64,000 bases of DNA from Psococerastis gibbosa (taxonomy: Eukaryota > Arthropoda > Insecta > Psocodea > Psocidae), in contig OZ020492.1 in the NCBI GenBank assembly GCA_963971405.1, positions 2,542,001 through 2,606,000 of the forward strand, given 5' to 3'. The translations under genes were made by a program, and so were the position numbers. Shown here piece by piece: positions 10,937-49,889 of this stretch (positions are counted from its first letter, which is position 1; each line of letters starts with the position of its first letter). The notes under the pieces were generated by a model. It had not been told where the DNA came from. It was given only the letters and a program-made list of their open reading frames with translations, and searched no databases.

Positions 10937-11286
10937 GTCCTAGATCACGCAGATCGAAACAGAAAGAGAAAAAGCCCGACGAGAAAAGACCTAGAACTGC
11001 ATTTTCAGGAGATCAGCTGGCGCGATTAAAGCATGAATTCAACGAAAACAGATACTTAAATGAAAGAAGAAGACAAGATCTGTCCAAGGAGTTAAACCTT
11101 AATGAAGCGCAGATAAAAATTTGGTTCCAGAATAAACGAGCTAAGATGAAGAAGTCTAAGGCTGAGAAGAACCCGCTGGCGCTACAGTTGATGGCCCAGG
11201 GCCTGTATAACCATACTACAGTGTCATTGGATGAGGACGAGTACTTAGAAGAAATGGCTTATGCAAATAAGGTTAAAGATACATAG
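10937..11286 (+). CDS. en: engrailed-family homeobox gene, terminal coding exon (copy A)
   Basis: Homeodomain transcription factor of the engrailed/invected family, a nuclear DNA-binding protein that in arthropods marks posterior segment compartments and neurons. The exon begins after a pyrimidine-rich CAG acceptor and opens with the last two bases of a split glycine codon. It encodes about 115 residues to a TAG at 11284-11286. Order: EH3-type basic linker starting PRSRR, homeodomain at 10981-11160 (EKRPRTAF to helix 3 [15 protein letters not shown], with W48, F49, Q50, N51), then the EH5 block [17 protein letters not shown], then an acidic tail. The split-codon boundary ahead of EH3 is the usual engrailed intron site. 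Oddities: Asn at homeodomain positions 27 and 39 (Thr and Gly in copy B) and a tail lacking the common PLTKEEEE run. No EH2-like WPAWVYCTR coding was seen upstream, so earlier exons should lie left of the window. I cannot tell engrailed from invected with this exon alone. Confidence 0.97.
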
Positions 11287-13142
11287 AGGTATTCCAGCGG
11301 AGGGGAAGCCCTGGTTCCAGAAGCTTATGTCTACGACGTAGATACGATTTGAAATGCTTAATACCCAACGATTTCGCATCTATTCTTTTAAGCTTCCCTT
11401 CGAAGGTGACCCCCAGGCCCCCCTAAGCTTTACGTTGCATGTATAAACAGTCGTGGTGAGCACTCTTGCTGACTTGTGAGTTGCCTGGCCGAAAAGTCAC
11501 CACTTTTTTCGTATTTCATTTAAGTTTGGTCACTACTTAGTCGAATGAATGTTCATGGTTTGGGCACTTTTGAGTTTTGCCAATTAGAAAGGACCATACA
11601 GATAGTGTCTCAACAAACGAATTGATCTCGATCTGTCTTTAGCCATTCTGGCAGGAGCTTCAATTAGGTTCCTTGAGCACATTTATTGGTTGCACTTACT
11701 GCAGTCTTTTGCATTGTGTGCATCTAGTTATACCTTTTATTAGCTCAGGTAGCCGTGTCAGCCCCTGAAGAAAGTCCAATTGTTGTATGCTATTAGTCTG
11801 GGCCTCAATCGCCCCCGTAGCGCAGCCACTCAACAACCACCTTACAAACTTGCCAACACCCATTGGGCCTACTACTTACAAGTGTTCTGCATGTTCTGTA
11901 TGTTTATTTTTTACACCATCATTATCTAGTGTTTTATGTAAGGGCAAATATTCAGGCCGGATGTACGTTTCTGGTACTCTTAGTAGTCTAGCCTCTAGGC
12001 AAAGTGTTTTAGCGCCACTCCCCCATGCCTATTGCACCAATTTTTCCCCCATGCCCAAGGCACCAGTTTTCCCCCACCTTTTACGTGCAATTTAAGCCTA
12101 ACCCTATACTGAATTTGCGTTACAAGATGGAGATGTATTGGCAAAAATGTACTTTGAAGACCTTCTAAAATATATAAACTGTGATTTAAACGAATATATC
12201 TGTATGCTATATTTTGTCAGGTGAACTATCATTAATCTATAAAATTGGATAGAGTAAGTCCTATTTCTGGAGTGGGTCGCCTGCTTCTTCCTTTCAGACA
12301 GCTTAACAGTCCTCAAGCCAGATAGTTTTTCCTAAATTTGGAAAGAAGCTCATATAGTTTTGTTACACTGTGATGGGCTGCGTATATTACATTTTATTGC
12401 TTAAAGTACAAGCCCAATAACTCGTACTGTACTTGCCTTTATTGTAGGTATTATGTAAAAAGTGAAAATTATATATTTGACTTGAATATGTGTTTCGTAT
12501 TAATCATATTGGCGCTCGTAATGGCTATACTATTTGAAAATATACATTCAATTATGGGCATAATATCTTCTTCACTACTATATAGTAATAAGAAATATAT
12601 GTATCATTTCTACATATAAAAGCCATATAATCTATATAATATCTATATAATATAATTAACGTGTCCGGGCCTAAGACACGTTTATCCAAAACGTTGTTTA
12701 TCTATACATAAAGCTATATAAAGCTATTCTATAGTTCATGTCTAAGAATTTTTTTTTTGTGAAATAGAGCCCCAACCTCGCTCTATGAAATGGTGGCAAC
12801 CGACCCGGTTACCTAGGATGGTTTCAAGTACCGAAGTCACCTCCCGTAAATCAGAATGGAAAGATGTAGAGTCTACCCAAGGGCAATGGACTCTTGTTTT
12901 TATAGAATAGCCTGAATGTAAGTGTAAGCCGAACAGGGAGAAGGAAAAGGCCACTAGGGCAAAAAACCTTCTTGTCCAAGAAATAAGGATTTGGAAACTA
13001 TGTTATAGCAATTATGCTGCCTGAAAATAGTTTAGGGTATCAATCGCTATATTTCTCATATTAAAAATTCAAAATTCAAAATTTAACTATAAATTTAACT
13101 ACACGCAGTGAATTAGAGTAAGGAAGACACAGAAAAATTGAC

Positions 13143-13205
13143 GGTACCGGGAATAGAACTCGAGTCTCCACCTTTGCGGGGACGGTATGCTGACCTCTGG
13201 TGGCC
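13143..13205 (-). repeat. tRNA-like sequence (SINE head?)
   Basis: Minus strand has GGTCAGCATACCGTCCCCGC followed by GAGTTCTATTCCCGG, placed like a tRNA A-box half and B box. It faces a plus-strand tRNA-like unit at 13396. Weak; no cloverleaf proven. Confidence 0.4.
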
Positions 13206-13318
13206 TTTTTGCTATTCACCTCCTATATGCGTAGCCTGCAGCTCAGCCCTATAGTTGGCAGATATATCTATACCAACATGTGTCAACTTTGTCAAGCCTT
13301 GCAATTCGGTGAGCGATA

Positions 13319-13380
13319 CCGTAAGCGTAAGCGTAAGCGTAAGCGTAAGCGTAAGCGTAAGCGTAAGGGAAGCGTAAGCG
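13319..13380. repeat. hexamer microsatellite (GTAAGC)n
   Basis: About eight uninterrupted GTAAGC units, then GGGAAGCGTAAGCG. It creates Lys-Arg and Leu-Thr repeat ORFs on the two strands, which are not genes. Confidence 0.95.
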
Positions 13381-13395
13381 ATATTGTAATAACGG

Positions 13396-13462
13396 GTGTG
13401 GTGTAGAGGACAGCATGCCACCGTGGCAAGGTGAATAGTCTGGTTTAAATTCCGTTTCCGTC
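13396..13462 (+). repeat. tRNA-like sequence (SINE head?)
   Basis: GTGTAGAGGACAGCATGCC resembles an A-box region and CTGGTTTAAATTCCG a B box, spaced as in a tRNA. The pair with 13143 (opposite strand) brackets the hexamer run. Confidence 0.4.
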
Positions 13463-13477
13463 TATTTCTACACACTC

Positions 13478-13600
13478 ATGGCCGTGCCCAGGGGGGTGGT
13501 CCAAGGGGTCCGGACCCCCCCCCCCCCCCGAAATAATTTTTGTTTATGTAAAGCTGTATTGTTTGAAGAATTGGAATAAATTTATTAGAGTTGTATAATT
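13478..13600. repeat. G-tract MITE, left end only
   Basis: CATGGCCGTGCCCAGGGGGG and the TGTAAAGCTGTATTGTTTGA core match the element at 28109-28298. The right end is not found. Confidence 0.6.
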
Positions 13601-14734
13601 CACTCCTTGATTTGCCAACTGTTTTAACTGGAAAAATCAATTTTTTTTTATTACATCAAAAATTTAATTTTTCCCCTTTTTTTACGTGCAATTGTCGTAT
13701 CTGCAAGCCTGTAAAAAATTGAAAATTTCTTAGCAGAAATGTAGGAGATACATAAGTTAAAATCACCGGAAAAACTTTGGAACGCTCTCCTGTAAAGTTA
13801 GCTATTTATATTTATAAGAATATAACATGCCTAAATTCTTCTTAAACTATAATACTAATTGTTTGCATTCATTTAATGTATAATTAAAACGTATATATAT
13901 ATATATTCTCAAAGTTAAAATAAACATAAAATATAATGTACGTTTCAGTGGTCAGCCTATAACAAGACATTTCATTTGTTTTTCCCGCGAATATAATGTT
14001 GTAAATATAATATTATATTGTATAACTTATAAGTTTACAATTATTGTACTTTGAATTGCTAAGGCTTATAGTTATAGTGAAGTAAAAAGTCTGAAAAATG
14101 TATCAATGACTGCTTAGCGTTATAGACTTCTTGTTCTTATTTTCAACTTTCCTACTTCTATGTTAGCGTAGCACGCTGTAACTATACATTATATTGCCTA
14201 GAGACATTTAAAAAAGTGCCCTGCATATTTTTATTTAGCCTTTGAATAACGAAAACCCGTTGAGGGTTTAGGCAGGCCCGGATTCACACAATTTTTTTGG
14301 ACTAAATCAAGAGATAAATTTGCGGCCCTCTCCCATAACTTTCCCACTTTATTATAGAGTAGTAGGTATTTTTTTATTATAATTAACATTAAGGTCCAAT
14401 GATCAGTGGCATGAGGAAAATGAAAAAATGTTAATGAGCTAATTCACTAATTGTCAAATAATTAATTAATAACATTGTATTATCAAAAATGACACCAATT
14501 TTACATTTTCCCTTAAAACTGCGCCCTCTTGGAAATTCGGACTCTTGACCTATGTTGTCCTTATAGGAAATCCGTATCTATTAGACCTGAGGACTGGTAA
14601 AGGAAAAAGAAAACTGGACACGATTCCTCAGGCAGAGTAGGCTACTTTTTAATATTATGCTCATACTATTAATTCTCATGCTCATACAAGGACGTACCTA
14701 TTGGGGTAGAACACCTAAAATTATGACTAGATAG

Positions 14735-15145
14735 CAAGGGTGACGCCAAGATTTCAGCTAGGGAGGGGGGGGGGCAGGAGGTAGGTCCCCACCCCCTTAA
14801 AAAGTCATTTCGTAAAACAATGACTATAGCTTAGCAGTAGCAAGCACTAGAGGGGGGAGGGGGGGGGGCAGCGGATGATCTAAATAAATAAATAAATATA
14901 GACTTTTTTGTTCTAATACTAAGCCAACCTAGCGGAGTTAGGGCTATAAGCCCTCTCTTACACTCAACTAGGAAAGCCCGGGACCGCCTGCTTTACATGC
15001 CCTCCGAAGCATGGCCAGAAAATATAGCAAGTGTGGGACTCGAACCAACAACCTTTCGGGTGAAAGTGGGAGTCCGTTCCACTATTCTACATGCTCTGAC
15101 TAGGGGGGGAAGTGGCCCCCCTGCCCCTCTCTGGCGTCGCCCTTG
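14735..15145. mobile_element. hAT-like MITE interrupted by a SINE, perfect 8-bp target duplication
   Basis: Ends CAAGGGTGACGCCA and TGGCGTCGCCCTTG; duplication CTAGATAG at 14727-14734 and 15146-15153 is perfect. The body GGCAGGAGGTAGGTCCCCAC matches 20002-20310. A SINE family 1 copy occupies 14881-15100, so the SINE is younger than this MITE insertion. Confidence 0.9.
14881..15100 (-). repeat. SINE family 1, near full length
   Basis: On the minus strand: tRNA-like head with an A-box region GTAGAATAGTGGAACGGACT and B box GGTTCGAGTCCCACAC, body CATGCTTCGGAGGGCATGTA, CCCGGGCTTTCCTAGTTGAG, and a (TTTA)n tail. Transcription would be by RNA polymerase III from the internal promoter. Confidence 0.88.
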
Positions 15146-15204
15146 CTAGATAGCCCCGAAATTTTGAAATACTATAGATCTGTGCAATGCTTACATATAA
15201 GCCA

Positions 15205-15636
15205 TGTTTCTTTGTCATTTTTCATGAAAATTGAGTATTTTTTTTGCCTCCAAAACCAAACTATCAAGGGGTTTGCTTACATTAGTAACATCTACAATTT
15301 ATGCAAATTAAAAGGAAATCATTGGAGTCGCTTTTGAGAAAACTTTTTTTTGGAGTGTTTGTAGGTTAAAACCTACAAAATTAAGTTAGTCCAAGATTTA
15401 AAAACACGTTCCGAGACATAATTTTTGTGAACCTATATGCAAAATTTCATCATAATCAACCGATAAGTTTGGCTACAAATCGACGAACAGACAGACAGAC
15501 CGACAGGCCGACATTTAGTAAAAAACACGTTTTTGGGTTCCTGGGACCTTCGTTGAAATCTTGGAATCGATCATTTCGTCCATCACAAACTACAAAGCTT
15601 TCCTTATACTCACCTATAAATATAGGAAAGCAAAAC
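15205..15636 (-). repeat. TCTG element, truncated copy
   Basis: Contains the diagnostic GTCGATTTGTAGCCAAACT variant, a short (TCTG)n run and the GCTTTCC terminus, but lacks the distal half present at 23357 and 58130. Confidence 0.75.
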
Positions 15637-16695
15637 TATGGAGGCCGTCGTATAAAATAAGACAATATAAGAATACAATGGTAAATAGAATAGCGTAACA
15701 AAATCCCCGACAAGATCAAAGGAAGAATCAATGGAAAGGAGCTCAACGAAATAATCACTACAGTCTGTAATCCCGACATGGGGTATTAGTGTAAGTACAT
15801 AGTGGAGGAGGCGCCGAACAATGGTTAGAAAATAAATGATTTGGAACCCCAGGAGGAGGGGGGGGGGGGTTTAGTGTTGGTGGGGGGTGGGGGGGGGGGT
15901 GTTACGCCATTTGGCCACCCTTGTCCTCACAGTTGCCACAATGATACCCCGAGTAATAGCCTCGGGTAAACTCATCTTCGCTCAGGACCGGTCTCAGGGC
16001 CCTATGAAGACTTGCTTCAATAAATTAATCAAAAATTTATGTTGCTACAAGGCATCAGAATTCAGCAGTTTTCCACTTTACAGCAGGTTATGGCCCAAGT
16101 CCAACGCTTCGTGCTTCGCAAGCCCTACTGTTATATTTAAAATTCATACATCCATTACAGGCTACAGCAGTCAGTGGCGTATGTATAATACCCAGACCAG
16201 CAAACTCTACAAGAATTAAGCGCCTTGTAGTACCTAGAGCACATACAGTACAGGTATAACAACTTTTACAAGATCATACCAGTACATAGCTCCAAAATTA
16301 TTTATCTTGATGTTTACCCTGGGTCTTTGTAAGTAAATAAATTCTGAAAATTCATTCGGTAGTGGCTGATGAGACGGGAAAAGGAGGAATCCTAAGATGC
16401 AATAGTGAATTAGACTGTTTGTTTGTGGGATCTGTTGTTGGTATGATAGTTTAGTTTTAATTATGTTTCATAATATTTTAATATTATTTAGGAGCAAGTA
16501 AATTGTAAAATGCCTCACAAAATTACAATTATTGTTATTTTGTGGTTGTTTCGAAACACGCTTACTTGCTATAATAGTATAATATATTATATATATACAT
16601 ATGTATAGTTAGTTACTGAATAGATTCAGTGAAATACGTTTTAAGAGTTTTGCAGTGTTAAATTATGTTTCCTCATTCATATAACATCTAGTCCA

Positions 16696-16887
16696 CAAGG
16701 GCGGATCCAGCGGGAAATTTAGGGGGGGGGGGAGCAAGTTGTATGTGTAGGTGTGCAGCCTCTACCACCACCCTCCCGAGAAATCGTTTTTGTAAAAAAT
16801 ATTTTATTTTTATTATCTTATCAATTTACTCATTAGGGGGGGGGGGGGGTCATGACCCCCGTGACCTCCCCCGTGGACCCGCCATTG
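16696..16887. mobile_element. hAT-like MITE, family B
   Basis: Ends CAAGGGCGGATCCAGCGG and GTGGACCCGCCATTG; flanks CTAGTCCA and CTAGTCTA match 7 of 8. 192 bp with poly-G and TCATGACCCCC inner blocks. Same family at 38988, 48128 and 63441. Confidence 0.85.
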
Positions 16888-16981
16888 CTAGTCTAGATTA
16901 ATGGCCCTGTTCTTCACAGCTGTAATCTTCGTGTAATGTTACTCCCAGGTATCTGAAAGTCCTGGCCTTAGGTCTTAGTAC

Positions 16982-17144
16982 CTAAGGCCGTAGCCAGAAA
17001 TTTTTTTCGGGAGGGGTCCATCTGACGCCACCGGAGGTAAGGTAGCCTCAATATATTTAAATCTCCAATCTATATGTAGTGTACGCTACAACTATTTCGG
17101 GAGGGATACGGACTCCCTGGACCCCTCTCTCTGGCTACGGCCTC
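16982..17144. mobile_element. MITE, family D
   Basis: Ends CTAAGGCCGTAGCCAGAA and CTGGCTACGGCCTCA, inner TCCATCTGACGCCACCGGAG and CAATATATTTAAA. Relatives at 29667 and 37016, and the termini of 54356. Confidence 0.75.
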
Positions 17145-18302
17145 AATAGTATCTTCTATCCCCTGATAAATCCGCGTGATAAATTATTGAAAATTGAAAA
17201 GTGTCAGACTTTGGAAAATGTTTCCCCTAATCATTTTCGCATCGATTCTTAGCGAAAGCCTTAATACGGGCCTGACACGTTTTTTAGGTGTACGAAAAGA
17301 CATAAAGGAAACATGACGGCCGAGAAAATCTCATATGAAAAATGGGGGCCAGAAAAAACTTTATATATTATCTGGTGTGGGAAGTGTTTATTACATTACC
17401 AAATGTTACACGAGGGGTGTGGTTTGCTTTATTGAAAGCTGGAGGGGTCGTACAACAAACAGCCCCAATTTGGACACACCCCTAGCCCATGCAACTCCGA
17501 ACAAATACCCCTAATGAGCTTACCGTTTACTATCATGGTAGACCTCGGCTTTATAATTTTCTTGAATGTATGGAAAATCACGTTTTCAAATGTTTTGCAG
17601 TAATTAACAGGAAATTGACTATAGATTTTTTTTTAAATAATTATTTTAAGGGTGACTTCACGTTTTGGCTTGCTTAATATACGCCCAAAGAGTTGTTTGT
17701 GATGGGTTGGTACATTGTGAGGGCTTTATAGCCCTAACTCCGCTAGGTGGGCGAGGCTAGGCGGTGGCGAGGTGGGCCGGTGGTGCAGGCCCAAAAGGCG
17801 CAAAATTTACCCCTGGAAACATTACATTTTCCTATGGGTGTGAAGCGCTCTCCAAAAAATAGAGTAAAGAAGACTGGGAATAATTTAAATCGGCAATGAA
17901 ACGAACTAATAGAAACTTTGAAAAAGCGCCAAAATTTGCTTGTGACATGAATTTTTTGGGTACAACTTGAATTTTTGGCTCTCATTAGACTTTTCAAAGG
18001 GGAAATCTCAATAAAATAAGGATACGAAAGGCTTCCTCCACTTTAGAATCCACTTCCACCTCCACTTTTCAGTCCTTGACCACTACAGTTTAGAAGGTAT
18101 GCACTGTATGATTTACTATAGCAATAATAACCTCAACTTAGGTACCGTACTGGTTTGTATGATATTGTGTAATATTTGGGCGGGTTACTATACTTTACTA
18201 GTAAGAAGGGGGCTAGGGTCGCATTTTAGACGAATTTTGTTAACCTTGTTCTAAAAACTACTCCAATGGTTTTTAGAAACCGAGCCGAAAAAACTGATTA
18301 GA

Positions 18303-18400
18303 AATAAAATAAATAAATCTCGACTTTTTGTTGTTCTATTACTAAGCCGACCTAGCGGAGTTAGGGCTATAAAGCCCTCTCTTACACTCCACTAGGATGG
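18303..18400 (-). repeat. SINE family 1, 3' fragment
   Basis: Carries CTTAGTAATAGAACAACAAA on the minus strand and the AGAGAGGGCTTTATAGCCCT block, then breaks off before the central part. Confidence 0.75.
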
Positions 18401-18650
18401 AACGCTTCAATTCAACCATGGCCCATCTGCCTAGACATTTCTACCTCTCTCATATTAAAGATTATTACACGGTCCGATTACATAAATAGCTTTATAAAGT
18501 AAGCCAAAACTAATTTTTGGACATTTTTATTCCTTCTTTTTGAGAAAATGCTGACATTTTCTTATTGAAACTCCTAAATCACATAAACGAATCGCCTAAA
18601 CCTAAACTTAGAAATGTTCTAGTTCCCCCCCCCCTTGATGCTAATGATCC

Positions 18651-18836
18651 CAAGGGCGGATTTTGCCTCCAATTTAGGGGGGGGGGTCAGCGGGCAGATT
18701 CAGTGGATCAACATTAAAAAACATTATTAATTTTTAATTACCACTGTAAACCCATACTCGTATTATCTAGTGTAAGTTCATTTAATTTTTGGGGGGGTCC
18801 AGACCCCCTGACCCCCCCCCCTAAAATTCGCCCTTA
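18651..18836. mobile_element. hAT-like MITE, family A
   Basis: Ends CAAGGGCGGATTTTGCCTCC and CTAAAATTCGCCCTTA; flanks AATGATCC and AATGAGCC match 7 of 8. The core AAAAACATTATTAATTTTTA is shared with 21865 and 44010. Confidence 0.87.
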
Positions 18837-19683
18837 AATGAGCCAAGGCTACCTAACTGCTAAGCTAATGTATGAGATGTAAATGAATAATAATCAAATC
18901 AAATGTATTAAATTCTATTTCAAAAGCACAAGATACAAATCAACAATGCCCAACCGCAAATGTTCCTAAGAATGTGCTTGGGGAGGGAACATACCATATA
19001 TATAGTATATATTTCTGTAAAATTATGCAACCAAGTAAACAACAAGTAATCGACAAGAAAGTATAATGTAAAATCGTCAAAATATCATCAAAATAAGGTA
19101 GTCCTGTCATTGCCATGTTAAATTTCTACTGCGTTGATGCTAGTATAATTTAATTACAATTTTCAATTATTTTGTTATTGTACGTGGTGCAAGTATATTT
19201 AGCAACAGTATAAAAAAGGGCTGGTAGCGGATTAACAGCCCCCCCCCCCCAACGTACGTCGAGACTAGTTAGTGACAAAGTCGAAAATAGGCGCTTGTGA
19301 TTAAAATGAAGGTCCGCCCATCGCAAAACATATTGTTTAAACCGCCCAGTGAATGGCAAAACTTTCCATGACTTGTAAATTTGAGAGCCAATAGATTATA
19401 AAATATGCCTGGTCCACAAGGATATGTCATGATTTTGCAGATGCCGAAGATAGAATGGCCCCCGGGGCCCTATTCGTCATCATAGTGAAATAAATATTTT
19501 TGATAGCATAAACTGCCAAATTTTAAGCCGACTATTCACAAGTTGGTCCTGCCCACTTCTTAATAAGAAACTACCGGCGGAAATAAAAATAGCCAGAGAA
19601 GAGCAACCAATATGAATTCACAATGTATAGAAAAAAATGTTTCTTTACGTTATGATGCACATTATGTGGCAATAACTAACTGG

Positions 19684-19872
19684 CAAGGCCGTAGCCAGGG
19701 GGGGGTTCAAATCCCCCCCCCCCCCCCCCCGATGAAATGGTTTGACACTAGATATATTCGGATTTTGAGAGGAAAAATAAAAACTACTTTGTAAAAATAC
19801 GTAAAACCTTACCTTACACAACTACATTTTTTAAAAAATCACTCCCCCCCCCCCCCCCGAGAGCCCCCCCGG
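19684..19872. repeat. MITE family D-like, degenerate
   Basis: Starts CAAGGCCGTAGCCAGG, with long inner poly-C runs at 19714-19730 and 19844-19858. The right end is unclear and no duplication was found. Confidence 0.5.
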
Positions 19873-20001
19873 TCTGCAGGGTATAACGTGTGTTTTAGTT
19901 AATTACATTTGGAAATTGAATGCATGCGGAATAATATATTAAAAGTGTATTTTACCTAGAATGGTGGCAAAACCAAACCTGGCGAGGATTCAGGATCCCC
20001 A

Positions 20002-20310
20002 AAAAGGGCGACGCCAGGAATATACTAGGGGGGGGGGCAGGAGGTAGGTCCCCACCCAGGGACGGATCCAGCCCATTTTCGGGGGGGGGGTAGCTGAGGG
20101 TCAAAATAAAATAGGAAAAACTTATGTAGGATCGACTAAATTAGAGCATAATAACTAAATTTACAATAGATTTACCAAATTTTGGGGGGGCAGCTACCCC
20201 CCTACCCCCCCCCCCTCCCTGTATCGGTCCTTGTCCCCACCCCCCTTAAAAAGAATTAGAATGCTAGGGGCTCTAGGTGGATGGTCCAGCCCCTCTCTGG
20301 CGTCGCCCTT
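20002..20310. mobile_element. hAT-like MITE (family F) split by a younger MITE
   Basis: Ends AAAAGGGCGACGCCAGG and CTGGCGTCGCCCTT; flanks GATCCCCA and GATCCCAA match 7 of 8. A family C element sits inside with its own perfect duplication, giving relative ages. Confidence 0.87.
20057..20233. mobile_element. hAT-like MITE, family C, nested
   Basis: Ends CAGGGACGGATCCAGCCC and TGTATCGGTCCTTG; perfect 8-bp duplication TCCCCACC at 20049-20056 and 20234-20241. 177 bp. The unbroken family F relative at 14735 shows the empty site TCCCCACCCCC. Confidence 0.93.
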
Positions 20311-21317: not shown

Positions 21318-21355
21318 TCGAGTCTGCGATTCGAACTCAGGACTGATAAATAAGA
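21318..21355 (-). repeat. tRNA-like B-box fragment
   Basis: Minus strand has CCTGAGTTCGAATCGCAGAC, a good B-box/T-arm match, but no A box was found. Probably a decayed SINE or tRNA relic. Confidence 0.35.
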
Positions 21356-23480: not shown

Positions 23481-23527
<47 letters not shown>

Positions 23528-26525: not shown

Positions 26526-26527
26526 TT

Positions 26528-39306: not shown

Positions 39307-39391
39307 TAATAAATAAATAAGGACTTCATTTTTAATACACTACAGCGGAGTTAGGACCATATATGGTCCTCTCTTATACAATCAACTAATA
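39307..39391 (-). repeat. SINE family 1, diverged 3' fragment
   Basis: AATAAATAAATAAGGACTTC, AGCGGAGTTAGGACC and TCCTCTCTTATACAATCAAC resemble the SINE tail with several changes. Confidence 0.5.
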
Positions 39392-42300
39392 GAAACAAAT
39401 ACAGTAGTACAATTTACAAATTTTATCGAATTGCTTTTGCCTTAGAACTAAATAAGCACTCACTCACCCACACCAGCAGTTCAAATAAATCCTGGCCTAT
39501 ATTATTTTTGAAATTATAAGCTCCTTGAGTCGAATCCTGAAGACGGCGTTTCTTGAATTTCACGGGGGATTGAGTTCCACAGTAAAATTCATATTGGAAG
39601 CATGAGACGACATACCCCAGAAGAAATGTTCCTCCACATTGAACACTGCTTCCAGTGCAGGTCCCACTCTCCCGAGATCGTCCTCAATTTCGTTTCTCTA
39701 CTTATATATCTAGTACATTGGTATTCCTATTCGCGTTTTTTTTTTCGAGAATTTTTTTAAAATCAACTTTTAGAAATGTCACGTACAACGTCGGAACGGG
39801 TCCAAATGACTTTAGATTAACCAATAGTTTTTGGCTCAATCCTGCCCACTTTGCAGAAAATCAGACACCCCTAAAAACTCTTTTTGTACAAAGTGCATTT
39901 CTCATGAAATTTTGAACATAACAACCATAAATGAGATGCCATAGCGTCAGTGACATAAATAACACCCCCCATCCAACCACCGCGGTGTGGAGCGCGCAGC
40001 ATGGCTGGGGGCGCACTTCGGCTCTCAGTTCCAGGTTTAAACTAAACAAAAACGTATAAATGAACTGAAATCATCCCAGTATTCCAGCCTTATCCTTGAT
40101 ACAACTCAAGATTTATCGAAAATTCATTAACTGTCTGTTGCACTGGGGTATGACTTAATAAAAGTTGAAGAAAATTACATACTGCTTCTGCTGTTACTTT
40201 GTTCTGGTAGGTTTACGCAGCAGAAGTTATTTACGCCTCTGCATAACGTTAGTGATATGCTCCCCTACATTTCATAGTATATAGGTAGTATGTTGTTAGC
40301 ACTAGGAATCGTTAGGCCACAGTTTTTTTTTTTTTTTTTTTTTTTAAATTGTGACTGCAAGCTAGAGCTTGCTTATACGCCCACCGAGTTTATTATTGTC
40401 GTTACAATGTAATTGTGAACTGCGTGATAATAATATGGAAGGTAACACACCTTCCAAAACTAAGGCCAAATGGTATTAGTGGCCGACTCGGAAAATGTAG
40501 AGAAATATTTCTTCATCTTTATGAAATCTCAATAAATTATGACTCTATGATCGATTTGATCTGAGACATTGGGCTTTGTACAAAAAACGTGAATACGTGA
40601 TCTCTTCAGGGTTGCCGAATATTTTTGTCTAACCCAATATTTGTTACGGCTCACAAATTTGGACTTAAGCAGCCACGTCTGCTATACCTAATCCATCGCC
40701 CTTACGTGAGACACATCAACGTATTATAGAAAAGTCGGCAGGATCATAATAATAAATCCGGCGATCCGGAAAGGGGTAACTAAATCGGCTAAAGGCAATT
40801 TTGCGGGTCACAGCACCCCAATGTAACGGGGTACAATGCACCCTTGATTTTGTCAACCCGATCTCAAACACGGGTGAGCCTTAAAAAATGATCCTGATAG
40901 AACCACAACCAGAGAGAAAACGGCATAACTTACATCCCATCGCGGTCTTCAACAGAATGAGTCATTTGAGCGTGTCCCATTCCAGTAGATTTGTCTAAAA
41001 AAACGGCGCAGATACGCCCTTATTGCGCGCTGGCGCCGAGTGACACGTCAGACCACCCACGATGCTTTGGACAGCTTCTGAGTTGACTATTTATTATTGT
41101 CTTAATACGAAAATGATACATGTAGCGAAATTCTTTTGCAATATGTGGGGCAAATTATTATTTTTTCAGCTCTGTAAATTGTTGCAAATTTTTAATTGTC
41201 AAATTTAATGAGTCGTTTGTTTTTTGCGTGTCTGGAAATGAACTGACATTTCTTGGAAGTCTGGTGTATATGATATTTGTCAGTGGGGGGAGGGGGGAGC
41301 TTGAGCCCTCCGGGGGAGCCCCTTCGGCTTTTATTCTTTTATTTGGCTTGTACCACTTTCTCATACATCAACCAAATTTGAATTGGTTTTAAATCTATTT
41401 CGTTCTTGCTAAAGTTTCTCACGCCTAGGGATAGCTGTAAAAATCATAATCAGCGGTGTTACTTCATATTTTGGGGTCTTGGGTTCTTTGGGAGGGGCAG
41501 TTTTTAACAATAAAAAAATTACAAATATATAAGTGCTGAGTGAGAAGTTCTATTTAGCTTAAAAGTACCAGCATGAGTGAGTTCTAGCATACTACCATTA
41601 TGCCCCCCCCCCCTGTCAACTCCCAAAAATAATAAAAAGATCGGGTGCCAACACTGATTTATTTTTTACAGCAGCAGCAGCCTTATCTTCTTCCTTTTCA
41701 GTACTACGTGAAGCTTCTGAACCCTCTGCTGGACCCCATCAGAAATAAAAAAAGTTAAAAAAATTTATGGATGCCTTTCACGACTATTTTATGCGTGTAT
41801 ATGGTGAGTGAAAGTGAAAGGTGTGGATGGCCATTCATTTTTTTTAGTTATACAGTATATTTTAATTTTTATTTCGTTTTTGAGTTTAATTTGTAATAGC
41901 CTGTTGTACAGCCAGCATTTAATTTTATTATTGATTTGCTATTTATATACGTTAGTGTAAGGAATTATTTTTGGTGGTGGAAATAATGAATTTTTAGATT
42001 CCAACGGATTTACACGTTTTGAGGTAATAGGAACCAAAAGTCAGAATAGGCCCAAATGGAAAATAAAGACAATTTTCTATGTATCTTTCCTTCATTCTTT
42101 CTTCCTTCCAATAAGTAGATATACGATGATGATATGACACAAGATATTGAACTATACGTATCATACTCATGTAGACTTCGCTTATTGAACGTATGTGTAC
42201 CTATGTACTACTCAGCAATCAAATAGACCTGTGATGACTTGCGAGTATATAGGAGAAATATATACATATATATATATTTATATACATATATATATATTTT

Positions 42301-42393
42301 TTTAGGCGCGGGACTCTTTCGCGTATTTGCGCCGGTCGGTGTGTGTGTGCGGAAGTGATGGCTTATTTGGCTGCTATTGGTAGTTGTGGTTTA

Positions 42394-42777
42394 GGCGCCC
42401 ATTCCACCGACCGGCTAGGGCTATTTACAAAAACGGTGACGTGGTAGCAGACATTCAAGACTTAGGTAGCGTTTCCACCAACCTCGCATTGCCGAATGCA
42501 AATGACATTGACGGAAATTTGAATTTTTCTTTTTATAGAAATCTATTAAAATGTTTGTACTTAACATATCCCATGACGCCATTTTTTAATTTTAGTTTGT
42601 TTGTTTGTGATTTTACTGTTTGATCATTGATCAATTTTAACTATGGCATAGAGGAAAATAAACATTTCCGTCAATTCTGCAATACGAGGTCGTTGGAAAC
42701 GCCGCCTAAGTCTTGAATATCTGCTACCACGTCACTGTTTTTGTAAATAGCCCTAGCCGGTCGGTGGAATGGGCGCC
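42394..42777. mobile_element. foldback TIR element, about 100-bp arms
   Basis: Left GGCGCCCATTCCACCGACCG, GGCTAGGGCTATTTACAAAA and GTGACGTGGTAGCAGACATT are mirrored at the right end to GGAATGGGCGCC. The palindromic ends make shadow ORFs on both strands. Related to 54035-54924. Confidence 0.88.
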
Positions 42778-44009
42778 TTTGAATGGTTTTCTTGAGTTTA
42801 TCTACAGGTGGGGCATGACTCCGGTCTTGATTAGAAAGCTTAACGTTGCCGTGACCGGCCCATGCTTGTCCCCTATTAAGTTTGTCAGGGTGTGTGGTTT
42901 TGGGTAACAAAAGTATTTTTGCTTTCCAATTTTTTTTTGTCTTGGATTTCCTTGAGCTGAACCATAGTCCTATGTTTGCTTTTTGCTTCCCCATTGACGA
43001 GTATGTCTTACCATAGTGTGGCAGCTTGAAAACCATCTCGCCAATTTCCAACAGACCAACAAGTATTAGCTATCAGTCTAAATAAAGTGTATCTCATGTA
43101 CAAGGTGTCAATGTCATTGAGACCATTGTGCATAGGATAGCAGTTCCATATCAGCGTTCAAGTTGCTCCGACGGCAGGTTGCTCCAAGTCATTATTTCCA
43201 AGTAGAACATTGTGTTACCATAAGCAGGTAATGGGCGGAATGGCCCATACTACGTTTACGTAATATATGTTTACAAAAAGTATAGAAATTTACTTAAATA
43301 ACAAATTTTAAGATATACTGGGTCATATATCCCCCATGAACTATAAATATCATATTTCCCTAGAACCTATTCGACTGTTTGCAGTCAGTAAACGCACAGA
43401 ACATACATCTCGATAACTCACCCCAACAAAGCAGCATGTCAAATTATTTGTTCCAAAACCACAGTTCGAAATCCAAAAACAAATCTTAATGAGAGACTAA
43501 ATGTTCGTCATTAAGACAGTGCCCTAAGAAGACCCGTCTTTAAATTCTATCAAGCCATGGAAACTCCGTCTTTTAAATAGCAAACCAATGGTTTTAACTA
43601 AGCCTTTTAATTTCACATATTATTCCGAATTTTTCTGGACTGATGAATAGGGGCTAGTTTTCGAAATGTGTTGGAACAGTCAAATGAGCCGCGACTGTCC
43701 AATTATCATACTGGGAACCGGTAGCACCTTAAAATTCCTCACTTTACCGTCGCTATGATCTACCTTGCCCATAAATTTTGGTCGTCTCGAACGGTATTCC
43801 CAAATTAGAATTTTTTGATGAATATTTAGAATTTTTATTTGGGCCCCTAATGCTGGGTGGCAAATGCCTGCGCTGCTTTAAAGGAGAAATTGAGATTCTT
43901 TAGCATTTCCTCTAAGGTTTCTATAACGCAGTGGAACTTGGGTACCTATGCGAGACTTGGTCTTTAATAAAAGAGGTTCACCACTACTAGTCAACCGAGT
44001 CTGGGAGGG

Positions 44010-44189
44010 CAAGGGCGGAATTTAGGGGGGGGGGTCAGAGGGTCCGGACCCCCCCAAAATAAATTAACTTACATTAGATAAAAATTGGTTTACAGTGGGA
44101 ATTAAAAATAATTATGTTTTTTAATGTTATAATCCACTGAACCTGACCGCTGACCCCCCCCCCTAAATTGGAGGCAAAATCCGCCCTTG
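44010..44189. mobile_element. hAT-like MITE, family A, perfect 8-bp target duplication
   Basis: CAAGGGCGGAATTTAGG to GGAGGCAAAATCCGCCCTTG; duplication TGGGAGGG at 44002-44009 and 44190-44197. 180 bp, inverse orientation to 18651. Confidence 0.92.
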
Positions 44190-44334
44190 TGGGAGGGAGG
44201 GGGGTCACTCCTCAGGTGTGCAAGTTACGTTAATTGGTTTGGCTTGGAGGTTGGGTTGGGGACAAATCAAACTCCAAACTAAGCTTCTAGCAAGCCCAAC
44301 TCCAAACCGAGCTCACCAAAATTTGGATAAGCCT

Positions 44335-44456
44335 AACTGACTGAGGCGTACCGAGCAGCAGACGTCTTACAAATTATATATACGATACAGCTTTCGTATA
44401 TTCCATTTGTAAGATGACTGTTGTTTGCGTAACACTTGGACAGTATGCCTCAGTTA
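44335..44456. repeat. imperfect inverted repeat
   Basis: TAACTGACTGAGGCGTACC and GTCTTACAAATTATA are answered by ATTTGTAAGATGAC and GTATGCCTCAGTTAA. Arms are gapped; may be a small TIR element. Confidence 0.5.
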
Positions 44457-44661
44457 ACTTACCGCGATTTTTCTGCTCTGACGTATGGTTCAACTTAGTT
44501 TAGTGTACCAATAGCACCTGTTTGAAGAGCTTTCATGATATTTTTATTTCCAAAGATGTTTCAAAATTTGCAGAAGCGTTGTTGGCTTGGAAATAATTGA
44601 AACACCAAGCCAAGTCAAGATTTTTCCAAACCAATCTACAAACGAAGCTCATCTCTTTTAA

Positions 44662-45217
44662 GAGTGTACAGCCCGTAGGAAAGTGGCAGCCCGAAATTTA
44701 ATACTTTTTATTTTTAGTTATCAAAATTGTATTTTTTTTTTTTATAAAATCGATAATACGTGAAAAGTAATTTTTTATAAAATATTTGCATGTTTCTGAA
44801 AAAACTACAATTTCGAAAATTAAAAATATCTTACAATATGGTCTCCGGTCCTGTAATGGTGATGACAATGGATTTCCCCCCCCCCCCCCCTATATTTTTT
44901 ATCCTTCTTTTTTACTACTCCTCTGTTTCCTTCTTCTCTATTTAATTTTCATTAAGTATAATAGTTCACAATGTTTTTTTTCTGGTTTTTAAGGTTAGCA
45001 TGAAAACAAGACTTCATAGTCTTATTGTTCGCCTTTTGTTTTGTTTACAATAAAGTCGTATTTTCATTTCATTTCATTTCATTTCATTTCATATGATGCA
45101 TGAAGTAGTCTTCTACAACTTTGATGAGCCAAATCTTTAATAACATGCTTAGTTAATTAAATAAAAAATAAAAAGTATTAAATTTCAGGCTGCCAATTTC
45201 CTACGGGCTGTACACTC
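44662..45217. mobile_element. piggyBac-like non-autonomous element flanked by TTAA
   Basis: Ends GAGTGTACAGCCCGTAGGAA and GGGCTGTACACTC are inverted repeats that continue into GGCAGCC/GGCTGCC and AATTTAATA/TATTAAATT. TTAA lies at 44658-44661 and 45218-45221. TTAA duplication is diagnostic of piggyBac-type insertion, but it could also be part of the TIR here. No transposase; a pentamer-tailed retroposon sits inside at 44850-45097. Confidence 0.65.
44850..45097 (+). repeat. retroposon-like repeat with (TTTCA)n tail, copy 4, nested
   Basis: Poly-C start at 44877, GGTTTTTAAGGTTAGCATGA, AGTCTTATTGTTCGCCTTTT, CAATAAAGTCGTATT, then five ATTTC pentamers to 45093. Best plus-strand reference copy. Confidence 0.8.
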
Positions 45218-45597
45218 TTAATATTTTTTCCAAACCACGCCAAACCTTAGAAACAAGTCAGGGATACATTTTTTTTTCAATTTTGCCTCTAAAATGTAAA
45301 AAAATTCCTTAAAAGGTCTAACTTGTTTAACAAGAATATCAGAATTCAGAAATCAGAAACGTTTGCCTAGTTCCTCATCATGACCTCAATGCATGCAAAC
45401 CTTTATCTAGAAGATATTGCTTTAGTTTTCGTCTAATTCTTACTAGGCCTTCTTCTAATGTACCGTGTCAACTTTTGGAAGGACCTAGCTTCTGCGTGGA
45501 CTGGTTTACACATTACACACATGCTTGCTGGTTATAGGTTCAGGGTTCAGTTATCGCTGCCTCTAGTACCCCTTTTGACTATACGGGCCACTGCTAC

Positions 45598-45837
45598 CTT
45601 CTTCTTCCTCCTCTTCCCTCTTAGTGGGGGGGCGGGGCGGGGGGGGGGGGGGGTCGCCCGAACCCATTTCCTTTACTCTCCCCGGTCGGACGCTAGCACC
45701 TTGAGCTCGGCCATTGTTTTCCCTCTTGCACCGGCGAGTTCTTCAATCCTTTCCTCGTGGGTTGTCCTCGGTGGCCAAAGCTACCATGTGTCGGAAAATG
45801 GAACGTGACGAATACTGCAGTACTCTACTATGTTTTA
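45598..45837 (-). pseudogene. LINE type 2 3' end, decayed
   Basis: The minus strand matches the LINE at 26042: GAGGACAACCCACGAGG, GAACTCGCCGGTGCAAGAGG, GAAAACAATGGCCGAGCTCA and CTAGCGTCCGACCGGGG. Frameshifts and stops are present. A MITE with its own duplication inserted at 45838. Confidence 0.75.
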
Positions 45838-46149
45838 CAGTGGCGGCGCCAGATATTTTAAGGCGGGGGGGGGGGCATGACTTCTGTCTGGGGGCCAATA
45901 AAAAAACAAAACATTTGTCACTGGGTGGGAGTAGGTAATAGGTATAATGAAAGTAAGTAACTTGTAGTCTTGTAACCAGTTTCAATTCTGACGTTTTTAA
46001 ATTACAAAAATTCTGCTGTATAACATGTCAGATATCTCAAAAGTGGGGGGGGGGAGAAACATTCGGGGGGGGGGAGAAACATTCGGGGGGGGGAGAAACA
46101 TTCGGGGGGGGGGCAAGTCCCTCTGGGTACCCCCGTTGTGCCGCCACTG
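45838..46149. mobile_element. hAT-like MITE with perfect 8-bp target duplication
   Basis: Ends CAGTGGCGGCGCCAG and TTGTGCCGCCACTG; duplication ATGTTTTA at 45830-45837 and 46150-46157. 312 bp. Inside near the right end is a G-rich minisatellite (46045-46112). Confidence 0.93.
46045..46112. repeat. G-rich minisatellite, 3-4 units
   Basis: GGGGAGAAACATTC repeats three times, separated by G runs of slightly different length, inside the MITE. Likely slippage-driven. Confidence 0.9.
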
Positions 46150-46377
46150 ATGTTTTACCCTATTCCAATGCATTGTGGAAGACTGCAGCATCCGGTGGAT
46201 TTCCTCAAGATTACCGAAACAGCTAGGGTGGAAGCAACTGTTGAAAGCTTTGATATTTGATACATGACTTAAGTCGGATTTTAATAGGCTTCCAATAGCG
46301 CATTATAGTTTATTTTATGTACACATTAGCAGATATTATTCACTATATCAAACGCCTGATTCAACAAACTCCCAAGC

Positions 46378-46530
46378 AGGTCCCAAAAAAGTGGTTTTTA
46401 CGAACTTTCTGACTGTCTGTCTGTCTGTCGGTTGGTCTGTCTGTCTGTTCATCAATTTCCGGGCAAACTACTCAATGACATGTAGGCTCACAAAAATCAT
46501 ACCTCGTGAACATTTTTTTATTTAATTAAC
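46378..46530 (+). repeat. TCTG element, fragment
   Basis: AGGTCCCAAAAAAGTGGTTT, the (TCTG)n run and CAATTTCCGGGCAAACTACT, then breaks off after AAAATCATACCTCG. Confidence 0.75.
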
Positions 46531-46554
46531 GAAACAAATTATTAACGATCTGGC

Positions 46555-46850
46555 TCATTTAAGTTGTAGAAAAAAAAGTGTTTCATGCAACATAATCATA
46601 TAACAGGGTTTTTCAAATTTTTGGTACCGTACCTCAATCATAAAAATTATTGGTGACTAAAATTTCACGTAAAATAGAATTCATTGAAAAACTACAACAC
46701 CAAAAATTAAAAATACCCTATTACATGTTGTATGAAGTAGTCTTCTACAATTTGAATGAAACAAATCTTTAATAACATGCCTGGATAACTAAAAATAAAA
46801 ATAACAAGAATTAAATGTTACAGTGCCAACTATCAATGTAACAAGTCCTC
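46555..46850. repeat. repeat related to 6520-7225
   Basis: Shares TTTCATGCAACATAATCATA, AAATTTCACGTAAAATAGAA, ATGAAGTAGTCTTCTACA and CAAATCTTTAATAACATGCC with the 6.5-7.2 kb and 45.1 kb repeats. Confidence 0.55.
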
Positions 46851-47206
46851 TTAATTTTAAAACACGAAGCCATTAGGGTCCTACAGTGCAGGTATAATAA
46901 ATAAAATCACAGTTATGGTACACATTTTAGTATATTTCAGTTTATACGCTAAAACTTTTCAAATTTGCGCGGCACACTGAAATAATTCTATTTGTTATTA
47001 TAGACTATATCGTACAATGCTTACGCGCGTAAAATTACATTGCCAAAACAAATAAAAGAGGACTAGGTTAACTTAAAAAGGCTAACTATATTATACCGAT
47101 GAGAATACAGTCAAAATTTTTATGAACGAAATAATAGTCTTTTGGGGTAATGCGTGATAGGTTAGCATAAGCACATCATAAAAATGTTCATTATATGCAT
47201 TGATTT

Positions 47207-47340
47207 TACTTTTTTTTTGTTCTATTACTAAGCCAACCTAGCGGAGTTACGGCTATAAAACCCTCTTTTACACCCAACTAGGAAGACCCGGGACCGCCTG
47301 CTTTACATGCCCTCCGAAGCATGGCCAGGAAATGTAGATC
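47207..47340 (-). repeat. SINE family 1, truncated
   Basis: Body and tail present to CATGGCCAGGAAATGTAGA; tRNA-like head lost. Confidence 0.8.
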
Positions 47341-47436
47341 ATATACTGCCCTAAATTGTGGAGAAAATATTATTCAGCTTCGGACACTTAACAACAGGAC
47401 CGGAGACTAAAATAGCTGGAGTTTTCCATAGGCGGG

Positions 47437-47575
47437 GTTTCCACATGCGTCAATGGTTAATGGTAAATATTGTATTGACGTTTTAGCAGACATTAAAGAC
47501 ATACTAAAAATGTTCGCTACCACTTCAAAACCATATTTACCATTGACCACTGACGTATGTGAAAACCCCGCCATA
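47437..47575. repeat. short foldback element
   Basis: GGCGGGGTTTCCACATGCGT and CAATGGTTAATGGTAAATAT are mirrored by ATATTTACCATTGACCACTG and ACGTATGTGAAAACCCCGCC. Its GTTTCCAC ends and a GCAGACATTAAAGACAT core recall the 42394 family. Confidence 0.75.
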
Positions 47576-48127
47576 GGAGAGATGGAGCATTCGCTTCCCG
47601 CTGAAAATAGGTTTTTTTGATGTCTCTTATTTTAAATTAAAAAAGAAATATTTTTGGAGGGCTTGAATGTCCCATCTCTTCTATATAAAATATAATAATA
47701 TATAAAATATCTTTGGATGGAGTCAGCGTCCCATCACTCCTTTATAGAGCTCTAGGCCAAACCTCTTCTTCTCACTTATGTTAACTTATCACGTCATTGC
47801 CTTAAGTCTTGCCACAAGTTATGACCTATGGTCTCCAGTAGATATATATATTCTCTTCCCACCAAGAATATTTTTTTTGAATTTTCGGGGCCACCTACCA
47901 AGAATAATCATTGAATAGACGTATCAGTAGGCCCCAATATTTAAAAAAAAAATATTTTTGGCAAGCTCGAATGTTCTATCTCTCCTATATAGAACTCTTG
48001 TCTCCAGGTTGTCCCGTAACAATTGCACAGATGTAAACAAATATATATTTAGCATAAAGTTATTTAATGTATACGTATCTTCTTAGATCTTTAGAATCCA
48101 CTGACTAAATCAGCATCGGGTTGTGGG

Positions 48128-48319
48128 CAAGGGCGAGTCCAGGGGAAAATTTAAGGGGGGGGGGGTGGGTCACCAGTTTTATGTAAGTTTAAAAGGTAAT
48201 TTGTTTCTTGAAAAGTTGACTTTTATTAAATTAAATTATTTTTTACTATCGCATGAATTTACTTATTTAGGGGGGGGGGGTCATGACTCCCCGTGACCCC
48301 CTCCGTGGATCCACCATTG
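48128..48319. mobile_element. hAT-like MITE, family B
   Basis: CAAGGGCGAGTCCAGGGG to CCGTGGATCCACCATTG; flanks GTTGTGGG and GTTGTAGG match 7 of 8. 192 bp. Confidence 0.87.
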
Positions 48320-49315
48320 GTTGTAGGTATCTCCTTATACTAATTTAGAAGCTAAGATTCGTTTTTATTTAAGCATGAAAACCGCGTTTTGCATGCTTTT
48401 ACTAGCTATACCCAGCTTTACGAACCTCATCAGACTGTAATGATGATATTTTGGTTGACCCCAAGCACAGGGTAGTTCCCACCACCGCAAGACTGGAAAA
48501 GTCTTGCTAAGTAATACTGGACGGTACCGCCATGTGCCAATTCATCGCGATTCCGTCCTGTATTCCTTACCCATACTTTCCAAGCGATGGTGGGTAGACC
48601 AGGCCTTAGTGAAATAAGTTTGGCTATGGCTTTTGGCGGTGAATAAATCTCATATAATTGCTTCGCTTCGGGGCTAAAGCTAATAGCTTATAGCTAATAT
48701 ATAAACCCTTTTCAAAACACCCTACTGGGAGCACCCTCATGCCTAGACCGATATGAGCAGTATATGACAATACAATACATAGGTACTAAGGTTTCAGACA
48801 GCCTTGTATATTATACTATGTAGAACCAATCAGAATTATATCTTCTGGCCTAAAATAAAATAATTATTTATTTGAGTCATCTCATCTTTGAGAGCAGGTA
48901 AGAATTATTTTAATTTAGGAAAGAATGTAGAATCATAGTTTTCCATCTACAGAGTTTTGCTACTAGTTTTATTATTATAACTATTACTCCTCTGAGGATA
49001 TTTATGTTTTTTTTATTATTATTCTGGACTTTAGTTCGTTCAGGTATATTCAACTAAATTCTCATTATTTTTTCCTCCCTATGGTTTAGGTATTCCTACC
49101 ATAGCGGAGGAACTCAACAACCGCCACACACAGTTGCCTACTCCCATCAGACTTGTGTGTTAAGTCTGAAAGGTTACTGGCAATGTCTATCAAGTACACA
49201 GTCATTGAGACCATCGGACGTACCTGTACCAGTGTAATAGGTGCGGTGTCGTGAACCTTAGAACATTGTATTGCAACTCTTTTTTGACAACCAAAGCTCC
49301 TGTGAGAATGTTTTA

Positions 49316-49396
49316 TGAAATGAAATGAAACAAGTTTTTATATTTGGTGAGCTTTAGCTCCGAAGACCTACTCTATACCAGCTAACCTATGTGTGG
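49316..49396 (-). repeat. (TTTCA)-tailed repeat, second subtype
   Basis: ATGAAATGAAATGAAACAAG, TGGTGAGCTTTAGCTCCGAA and CTATACCAGCTAACCTAT match 33575-33690. It lies about 160 bp past the stop of engrailed copy B, so it may be in or near that 3' UTR. Confidence 0.65.
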
Positions 49397-49451
49397 CCAT
49401 TTACATTATTATATGAGATTTTTTCGTGTCTTAAAGGCAGCCCAATTGAAA

Positions 49452-49457
49452 TTTATT
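49452..49457 (-). promoter_or_regulatory. candidate polyadenylation signal for engrailed copy B
   Basis: An AATAAA hexamer on the minus strand lies about 95 bases past the TGA stop. It is the first such hexamer after the stop. Spacing is plausible for a short 3' UTR, but chance occurrence is likely in AT-rich DNA, and no downstream GU-rich element was established. Confidence 0.3.
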
Positions 49458-49551
49458 GAGATAATAACTTATGGACCATTTTTAGGCCCAAATTGGGGGC
49501 TCACACTTAAGAGACTACGCAACATTAATAAGCAATATCGTCTTTACAACA

Positions 49552-49889
49552 TCAGTCACTTAATTCGGCAGCTGCCGCTTCTTCTTCTTCCTTGGTAAGG
49601 GGCACCGTGCTGTGGTTGTACAACCCCTGGGCCATCAGCTGTAGTGCCAGGGGGTTCTTTTCCCCCCGCGCCTTCTTCATCTTCGCCCTCTTATTTTGAA
49701 ACCAAATTTTTATTTGCGCTTCATTAAGTCCTAACTCTCTTGCAAGGTCCTGACGTCGCCGTTCGGTCAGGTATCGGTTTTCGGCGAATTCGTGTTTTAA
49801 CCTGGACAGCTGGTCGCCGGAGAACGCCGTTCGCGGCCTCTTCTCTTCGGGGTTTTTCTCTTTGTTCTTTGGCCGGCGTGTTCTAGGGC
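49552..49889 (-). CDS. en: engrailed-family homeobox gene, terminal coding exon (copy B)
   Basis: Second engrailed/invected-type homeodomain exon, transcribed toward copy A. On the minus strand a TTTTGATTCCAG acceptor is followed by the last two bases of a split Gly codon and PRTRRPK. The homeodomain runs 49845 down to 49666 (EKRPRTAF to [15 protein letters not shown]), followed by EH5 [25 protein letters not shown], an alanine run and a TGA at 49554-49552; about 111 residues. An open frame runs back to 49989, but those extra residues are intron read-through, because the family's splice junction falls exactly at the glycine. The homeodomain is identical to copy A at 52 of 60 positions; differences are at 14, 21, 27, 35, 36, 39, 59 and 60, and helix 3 is identical. 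Its codons are richer in G and C than those of copy A. The sequence is closer to the common arthropod engrailed pattern. Earlier exons should lie right of 64000. Confidence 0.97.

Follow-up and report, generated by a model that had tools for sequence, protein, structure and literature searches.

Two intact engrailed-class genes arranged tail to tail on the X chromosome of the barkfly Psococerastis gibbosa

Described engrailed/invected pairs and the barkfly locus

Both engrailed (en) and invected (inv) mark the posterior compartments of segments and are under shared regulation, and the diagnostic exon of inv is 6 nt long and encodes Arg-Ser. The duplication that produced the two genes has been described as older than the hexapod radiation, with the copies lying tail to tail and inv carrying a diagnostic exon, and for Oncopeltus fasciatus, the milkweed bug, both a tail-to-tail order and a diagnostic alternative inv exon are stated (PMC6444547). 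In Papilio dardanus, the listed positions are 192,833 for en exon 1, 208,074 for en exon 3, 243,505 for inv exon 5 and 286,121 for inv exon 1 (PMC4071540).

The window analysed in this work, a 64,000-bp stretch of the X chromosome (contig C20) of the barkfly Psococerastis gibbosa (Psocodea), very probably contains the 3′ halves of en on the plus strand and inv on the minus strand, i.e. the conserved tail-to-tail hexapod pair, with the inv microexon being predicted. Compared by description only, the locus resembles that of Oncopeltus in the tail-to-tail arrangement and the diagnostic inv exon, which is a candidate in the barkfly, while the hosts differ in order, being a member of Hemiptera and of Psocodea, respectively (PMC6444547). 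The exon positions in Papilio imply the same order as in the barkfly pair, as judged from the positions and not from strands, with about 35 kb separating en exon 3 from inv exon 5 against 38.3 kb between the barkfly stop codons, and inv is the longer gene in both species (about 43 kb in Papilio and 56 kb in the barkfly). The Papilio exon numbering (PMC4071540) implies at least three en and at least five inv exons, whereas two coding exons were seen for barkfly en and two plus the candidate microexon for inv.

The Oncopeltus-like orientation and predicted microexon together with the Papilio-like exon order therefore agree with a single old origin of the pair and its long retention. The barkfly pair is an ordinary, well-preserved example of the known insect pair, and what is new is a chromosome-level Psocodea example of the hexapod cassette, placed on the X chromosome. 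The first-pass annotation, made from the sequence alone, had proposed that the locus would matter for dating the duplication across arthropods, which is not supported, as the barkfly is a neopteran insect in which such a pair is expected; the pair does not extend the duplication to animals other than hexapods.

Gene structure, copy number and surroundings

The stop codons of the two intact genes face each other across a spacer of 38,265 bp (11287..49551), bounded by the terminal exon of the plus gene (10937..11286) and that of the minus gene (49552..49889). The plus exon follows the acceptor tttcag|GTCCTAGA, with the first exonic base at 10937 and the stop codon ending at 11286, and the minus exon follows ttccag|GCCCTAGA, with the first exonic base at 49889 and the stop codon ending at 49552. 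The first-pass annotation had described terminal homeobox exons on opposite strands with facing stops about 38 kb apart, and its exon starts, 10937 (+) and 49889 (−), proved exact to the base; a glycine codon is indeed split at both acceptors, as G|GT and G|GC, in phase 1 in each case. The tail-to-tail order in insects, which the same annotation had mentioned, is stated for Oncopeltus (PMC6444547). Both terminal exons matched the Pfam Homeodomain model (PF00046; E values of 1.4e-22 for the plus and 2.3e-23 for the minus exon) and the engrailed C-terminal signature (PF10525; 3.7e-16 and 2e-18, respectively), all above the curated cut-offs.

The remainder of the window consists of the 3′ part of the en intron (1..10936, plus strand) and the 3′ part of the inv intron region (49890..64000, minus strand; 54.5 kb in all), with both first coding exons and the candidate microexon lying outside. 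A motif search inside the window returned zero EH2 matches and three weak EH1-like ones, none convincing; the EH1/EH2 exons, for which a search had been suggested in the first pass, were found in the flanks for both genes and join the homeobox exons in the same phase. The first coding exon of en (C20:2541079-2541634, plus strand) ends 366 bases before the window start and contains EH1 RIKFSVDQILKPDFG and EH2 WPAWVYCTRYSDRPSSG, and that of inv (C20:2647810-2646418, minus strand) contains EH1 TLKFSIDNILKSDFG and the same EH2, as well as an LSVG string which may correspond to a motif of invected and is given no weight in the assignment of the genes. The en intron is 11,302 bp long, with the donor TTCAG|GTATGT and the acceptor tttcag|GT. 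The joined coding regions, with start codons and any 5′ UTR exons as predicted, are intact and comprise 301 aa in en and 578 aa, including the candidate microexon, in inv, and EH1, EH2, the homeodomain and EH5 are all present in both genes.

Both genes code for homeodomain transcription factors that combine the EH1 peptide and the EH2 motif with the homeodomain and a C-terminal signature of engrailed class. In this family, EH1 serves to recruit Groucho, and Extradenticle is contacted through EH2; by analogy, the barkfly proteins may make the same contacts and act in posterior compartments.

A whole-genome homeodomain search, run with a query hand-mixed from both homeodomains and giving match counts that are lower bounds, produced at least 20 matches with an E value no higher than 1e-6. 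The pair itself showed 96% and 89% identity to the query, the other 18 showed no more than 53%, and only these two were of engrailed class among the matches listed. As a separate observation on the same genome, its Hox3 is not strongly zen-like, for which a host among the non-insect arthropods was weighed; this was dismissed, since the order of the mitochondrial genes fits that of the genus Psococerastis.

No tRNA genes were found in the window with ARAGORN. The surrounding 264-kb region contains 98 open frames of at least 100 aa, 12 of which were scanned against Pfam, namely the two homeobox exons and ten others. One of these ten gave matches to RNase H and to a reverse-transcriptase zinc finger, no Pfam model matched the two engrailed-family first exons, which were also among the ten, and no flanking gene was identified among the scanned frames (12 of the 98). 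E(Pc) is a neighbour of the Drosophila pair; in the barkfly, by contrast, both matches to the E(Pc) family (EPL1) are on contig C13 and none is on C20, and the two DDT-domain matches, considered for synteny with Drosophila, are on C19 and C13, again with none on C20.

The candidate microexon and the assignment of the copies

The copies cannot be told apart as en and inv by their homeodomains alone: with regard to the engrailed-class homeodomain of Drosophila melanogaster Engrailed (PDB 3hdd), 51 of 59 residues are identical in the plus gene and 49 of 59 in the minus gene. The intron of the minus gene contains a candidate 6-nt Arg-Ser microexon, gcag|GAAGAA|gtaagt, with a consensus donor, at C20:2606521-2606516 on the minus strand (window coordinates 64521-64516), 516 bp past the window end. 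The Arg-Ser pattern with a YAG acceptor and a GTRAG donor occurs once on both strands of the 264-kb region, on the sense strand of this intron, against a mean of 0.02 in 200 first-order Markov randomisations of the intron. A pyrimidine filter with a minimum of 11 of 16 removed this candidate and kept four other 6-nt candidates of the intron, none of which encodes Arg-Ser. Under a looser AG...GT pattern, there is one Arg-Ser-coding match in the plus-gene intron (9634-9639, plus strand; ctcag|ggagaa|gttaga), with a weak pyrimidine tract and a poor donor, and two more in the minus-gene intron, both on the antisense strand.

The check for an invected-type microexon proposed in the first pass was borne out in so far as a consensus-donor candidate exists in the minus-gene intron, though as a prediction from DNA with a loose match in the plus-gene intron; its presence in exactly one paralogue holds at the DNA level under the consensus-donor pattern. 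Since the minus gene has the consensus-donor candidate and the plus intron a loose match only, the minus gene is most likely inv and the plus gene en. If spliced in vivo, as predicted, the microexon would place Arg-Ser between the exon for EH2 and that for the homeodomain (SSG-RS-PR), and its phase would let either inclusion or skipping stay in frame.

Divergence of the copies and possible exchange between them

The homeodomains of the two copies are identical at 52 of 60 residues, the value given in the first-pass annotation and reproduced here, or at 52 of 59 over the stretch compared with Drosophila Engrailed. At silent sites, the copies agree at 3 of 10 fourfold positions in the homeobox, and in EH2, where the residues are the same, at 2 of 15 codons. 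The same codon is used at 23 of the 50 identical degenerate residues of the homeobox, and a codon identity of at least 0.46 was reached by 11 of 45 Hox/rough pairs, each compared over 60 codons. The silent sites of the pair are therefore about as diverged as those of Hox paralogues, and an independent, recent inverted duplication, one of the two origins proposed in the first pass, is rejected on this ground. The other, an ancient linked pair, is supported: the orientation, the presence of a consensus-quality microexon candidate in one of the copies and the Hox-like silent divergence all agree with the published cassette.

A tandem inverted duplication of a single engrailed gene specific to Psocodea or to barkflies, unrelated to the insect en/inv duplication, is very improbable. 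The copies share GDQ, RRQDL and MKK residues which differ from Drosophila Engrailed and are slightly closer to each other (52/59) than to it, as such an origin would have it, but the fourfold sites and EH2 codons speak against it, as do the poor alignment of the first exons outside the EH motifs and their unequal products (301 and 578 aa). The consensus-quality microexon candidate in one copy only and the order and orientation, both as stated for Oncopeltus, and the exon order, as in Papilio, also argue against it. That one copy is dead or a processed duplicate, which the first pass had named as fatal to the ancient-pair reading, can be practically dismissed: no supporting evidence was found in either copy, and both keep a GT-AG intron, open frames and engrailed motifs.

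Concerted evolution has been proposed for hexapod en/inv, as has long-term copying of exons between paralogues in other insects. A later homogenisation of the homeobox exons of an ancient pair by gene conversion in the barkfly lineage is a tentative possibility which we consider rather unlikely. Across the conserved 95 codons of the homeobox exon, the same codon is used at 39 of 77 identical degenerate residues against 28.0 expected (permutation, p 0.002), and the agreement is 7 of 9 in the part preceding the homeodomain, 23 of 50 inside it and 9 of 18 in the part following it, compared with 2 of 15 in EH2, located in the other exon; in the Hox/rough control, a permutation p of 0.05 was reached by 1 of 45 pairs and 0.0025 by none of the 45 (60 codons each). 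However, when the count is restricted to the 60 codons of the homeobox, which can be compared directly with the Hox control, the 23 shared codons against 18.8 expected are not significant (p 0.115), the codon identity is equally high in the 11 Hox/rough pairs mentioned above, and no identical run exceeds 14 nt, which leaves no recent conversion tract. A trace of past conversion limited to the homeobox exon, where synonymous codons agree above chance as they do not in EH2, is rather unlikely; if real, it would mean that the tail-to-tail layout has allowed copying of the DNA-binding exon between the paralogues over long periods in Psocodea.

A direct comparison of the two loci at the DNA level yielded 24 rows. 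One corresponds to the homeobox exon, and several of the rest have a query stretch in common that matches at many places, the pattern expected of interspersed repeats.

Structure and intactness of the two genes

The terminal homeobox exons are located at 10937-11286 (plus strand, ending with the stop codon, acceptor tttcag) and 49889-49552 (minus strand, likewise ending with the stop codon, acceptor ttccag). The first-pass annotation had positioned both exactly, and its count of 52 identical homeodomain residues out of 60 was reproduced on recomputing, as was the phase-split glycine, the codon of which is broken after the first base and completed by each exon. Both exons exceed the curated cut-offs of the Pfam models for the homeodomain and for the engrailed C-terminal signature. 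A search of the 409-Mb genome with a query mixed by hand from both homeodomains gave at least 20 matches (the counts are lower bounds), of which the pair stands out with identities of 96% and 89%, none of the remaining 18 listed exceeding 53%.

No convincing EH1/EH2 exon was detected within the 64-kb window by motif search, and both missing first coding exons are present in the flanks, where it had been proposed to look for them (100 kb on either side on the same contig, 264 kb in all). The plus-gene exon occupies positions 2541079-2541634 of contig OZ020492.1 (C20), plus strand, ending 366 bases before the window, and the minus-gene exon occupies C20:2647810-2646418, minus strand, about 40 kb past the window end. 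EH1 is represented by RIKFSVDQILKPDFG and TLKFSIDNILKSDFG in the plus- and minus-gene exons, respectively, and the EH2 peptide WPAWVYCTRYSDRPSSG is common to both. With their exons joined, both genes are open throughout, coding for 301 aa (plus) and, including a candidate microexon, 578 aa (minus), with start codons predicted; neither is a processed or visibly broken copy. The plus-gene intron, the spacer and the minus-gene intron measure 11.3, 38.3 and 54.5 kb.

Engrailed and invected proteins are homeodomain regulators possessing an EH1 repression peptide. Nothing seen in the barkfly sequence appears to be at odds with that family role, which in Tribolium, according to the accessible part of PMC10455198, is largely redundant between the paralogues in segment and limb patterning.

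Naming of the copies and comparison with other insects

The exon diagnostic of invected is presumably the 6-nt RS microexon encoding Arg-Ser, which was named in the first-pass annotation too. An alternative exon retained in insect invected is called diagnostic for Oncopeltus in the available text of PMC6444547. The pattern used, with phase-1 flanks, was G-N-(Arg codon)-A followed by an acceptor exon starting with G[TC], and it has one sense-strand match in the minus-gene intron, ctaatagtgatttttctgttgcag/GAAGAA/gtaagt (C20:2606521-2606516, minus strand, 516 to 521 bases past the window end), which if included would yield SSG-RS-PR. Restricting acceptors to YAG and donors to GTRAG left this match alone in the 264-kb region, both strands considered, and the intron randomised 200 times yielded 0.02 matches on average. 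The search proposed earlier thus provided a candidate in the minus gene, but one that fails a pyrimidine filter (11 of 16) passed by four non-RS 6-nt candidates from the same intron. A looser pattern (AG...GT) also matches once in the plus-gene intron (ctcag/ggagaa/gttaga, window 9634-9639), where the tract is weak and the donor poor, and twice in the minus-gene intron in antisense orientation. On balance, these sequence features point to the minus gene being invected (inv) and the plus gene engrailed (en), with the microexon as a predicted one.

The barkfly pair is a textbook case. The exon positions in Papilio dardanus given in the portion of PMC4071540 consulted (en exon 1 at 192,833 and exon 3 at 208,074; inv exon 5 at 243,505 and exon 1 at 286,121) imply the same convergent order, and an excerpt of PMC9632033 lists 2, 2, 2, 2 and 1 engrailed-family genes for, by footnote order, fly, bee, beetle, pea aphid and the psyllid Diaphorina. 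Drosophila-like flanking synteny was not seen around the barkfly pair. In a literature search, none of the 12 titles listed of 91 papers was on en/inv in barklice, a listing that leaves absence unproven.

Age of the duplication and gene conversion

Three of 10 fourfold-degenerate homeobox sites are identical between en and inv, and at identical degenerate residues the codons agree in 23 of 50 cases in the homeobox and in 2 of 15 in EH2. The yardstick came from comparing nine Hox homeoboxes and rough from the same genome with one another (45 pairs), excluding the intron-split proboscipedia homeobox; the pooled codon identity of these pairs is 0.40 and their fourfold identity 0.26, with 11 of the 45 at a codon identity of at least 0.46. 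By this measure en and inv differ from each other about as much as Hox paralogues do and are not a recent duplication. The earlier reading of an ancient pair was right.

The data leave room for old gene conversion within the homeobox exon, as 39 of 77 codons are identical over the 95-codon conserved block versus 28.0 expected (permutation, p 0.002); simulation from the codon usage of each gene gave 27.9 and 0.0026, and the excess is spread as 7/9 before, 23/50 in and 9/18 after the homeodomain. However, the homeobox alone has no significant excess (p 0.115; of the 45 Hox/rough pairs, 1 reached p 0.05 and none 0.0025), and the longest identical run is 14 nt.

Host genome, X linkage and mitochondrion

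The assembly analysed contains 409,210,807 bases in 68 contigs, five of which have 53,621,875, 52,571,483, 50,329,800, 46,548,803 and 22,821,630 bases. The P. gibbosa genome note, in the part available, reports 409.21 Mb, 69 scaffolds, chromosomes of 53.62, 52.57, 50.33 and 46.55 Mb, an X of 22.82 Mb and a mitochondrion of 17.08 kb. The en/inv pair (C20:2541079-2647810) is on the X chromosome, its contig having the length given for the X, and this location may affect the dosage of the two segmentation genes. About 40 kb past the invected first exon, a subregion of C20 (L027:1776-9544, C20 ~2687776-2695544) contains two open-frame pairs, alike in their first 60 residues and in mirror orientation, which suggests a large inverted repeat or a palindromic mobile element; no Pfam model matched one frame scanned per pair.

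On another contig (C2:32412600-34151921) the Hox cluster lies on one strand, in order, over 1.3 Mb, with lab, pb (intron-split), Hox3/zen, Dfd, Scr, ftz, Antp, Ubx, abd-A and Abd-B named by eye and rough 0.4 Mb past lab. Compared with a typical zen homeodomain, that of Hox3 looks less diverged.

In the mitochondrial contig (C68, 17,084 bases), nad3 follows nad5, trnN-S1-E follow nad3, and trnM-C precede trnI-Q; tRNAs were predicted with ARAGORN (a few evidently spurious), cox1 was assigned by Pfam and the other protein genes were identified visually from their reading frames. It is the same rearrangement as in Psococerastis albimaculata, in which the available part of PMC3632521 describes nad3, trnN, trnS1, trnE, trnM and trnC as translocated. 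With this gene order and the matching assembly and chromosome lengths, the host is a neopteran insect, and the value for dating the duplication across arthropods attached to the pair in the first-pass annotation falls away, the pair having no bearing on its dating outside hexapods. Both species carry 20- and 36-bp arrays, although with very different copy numbers: nine and five tandem units in the P. albimaculata control region (PMC3632521, same part), and 56.8 and 9.8 perfect copies in the P. gibbosa non-coding region (L052:5755-8079, a subregion of C68). A chromosomal copy of cox1 on contig C14 (11085363-11086704) spans the complete profile in two pieces that overlap. Together with 40 shorter matches to cox1 at other sites off the mitochondrial contig, it probably represents nuclear copies of mitochondrial DNA.
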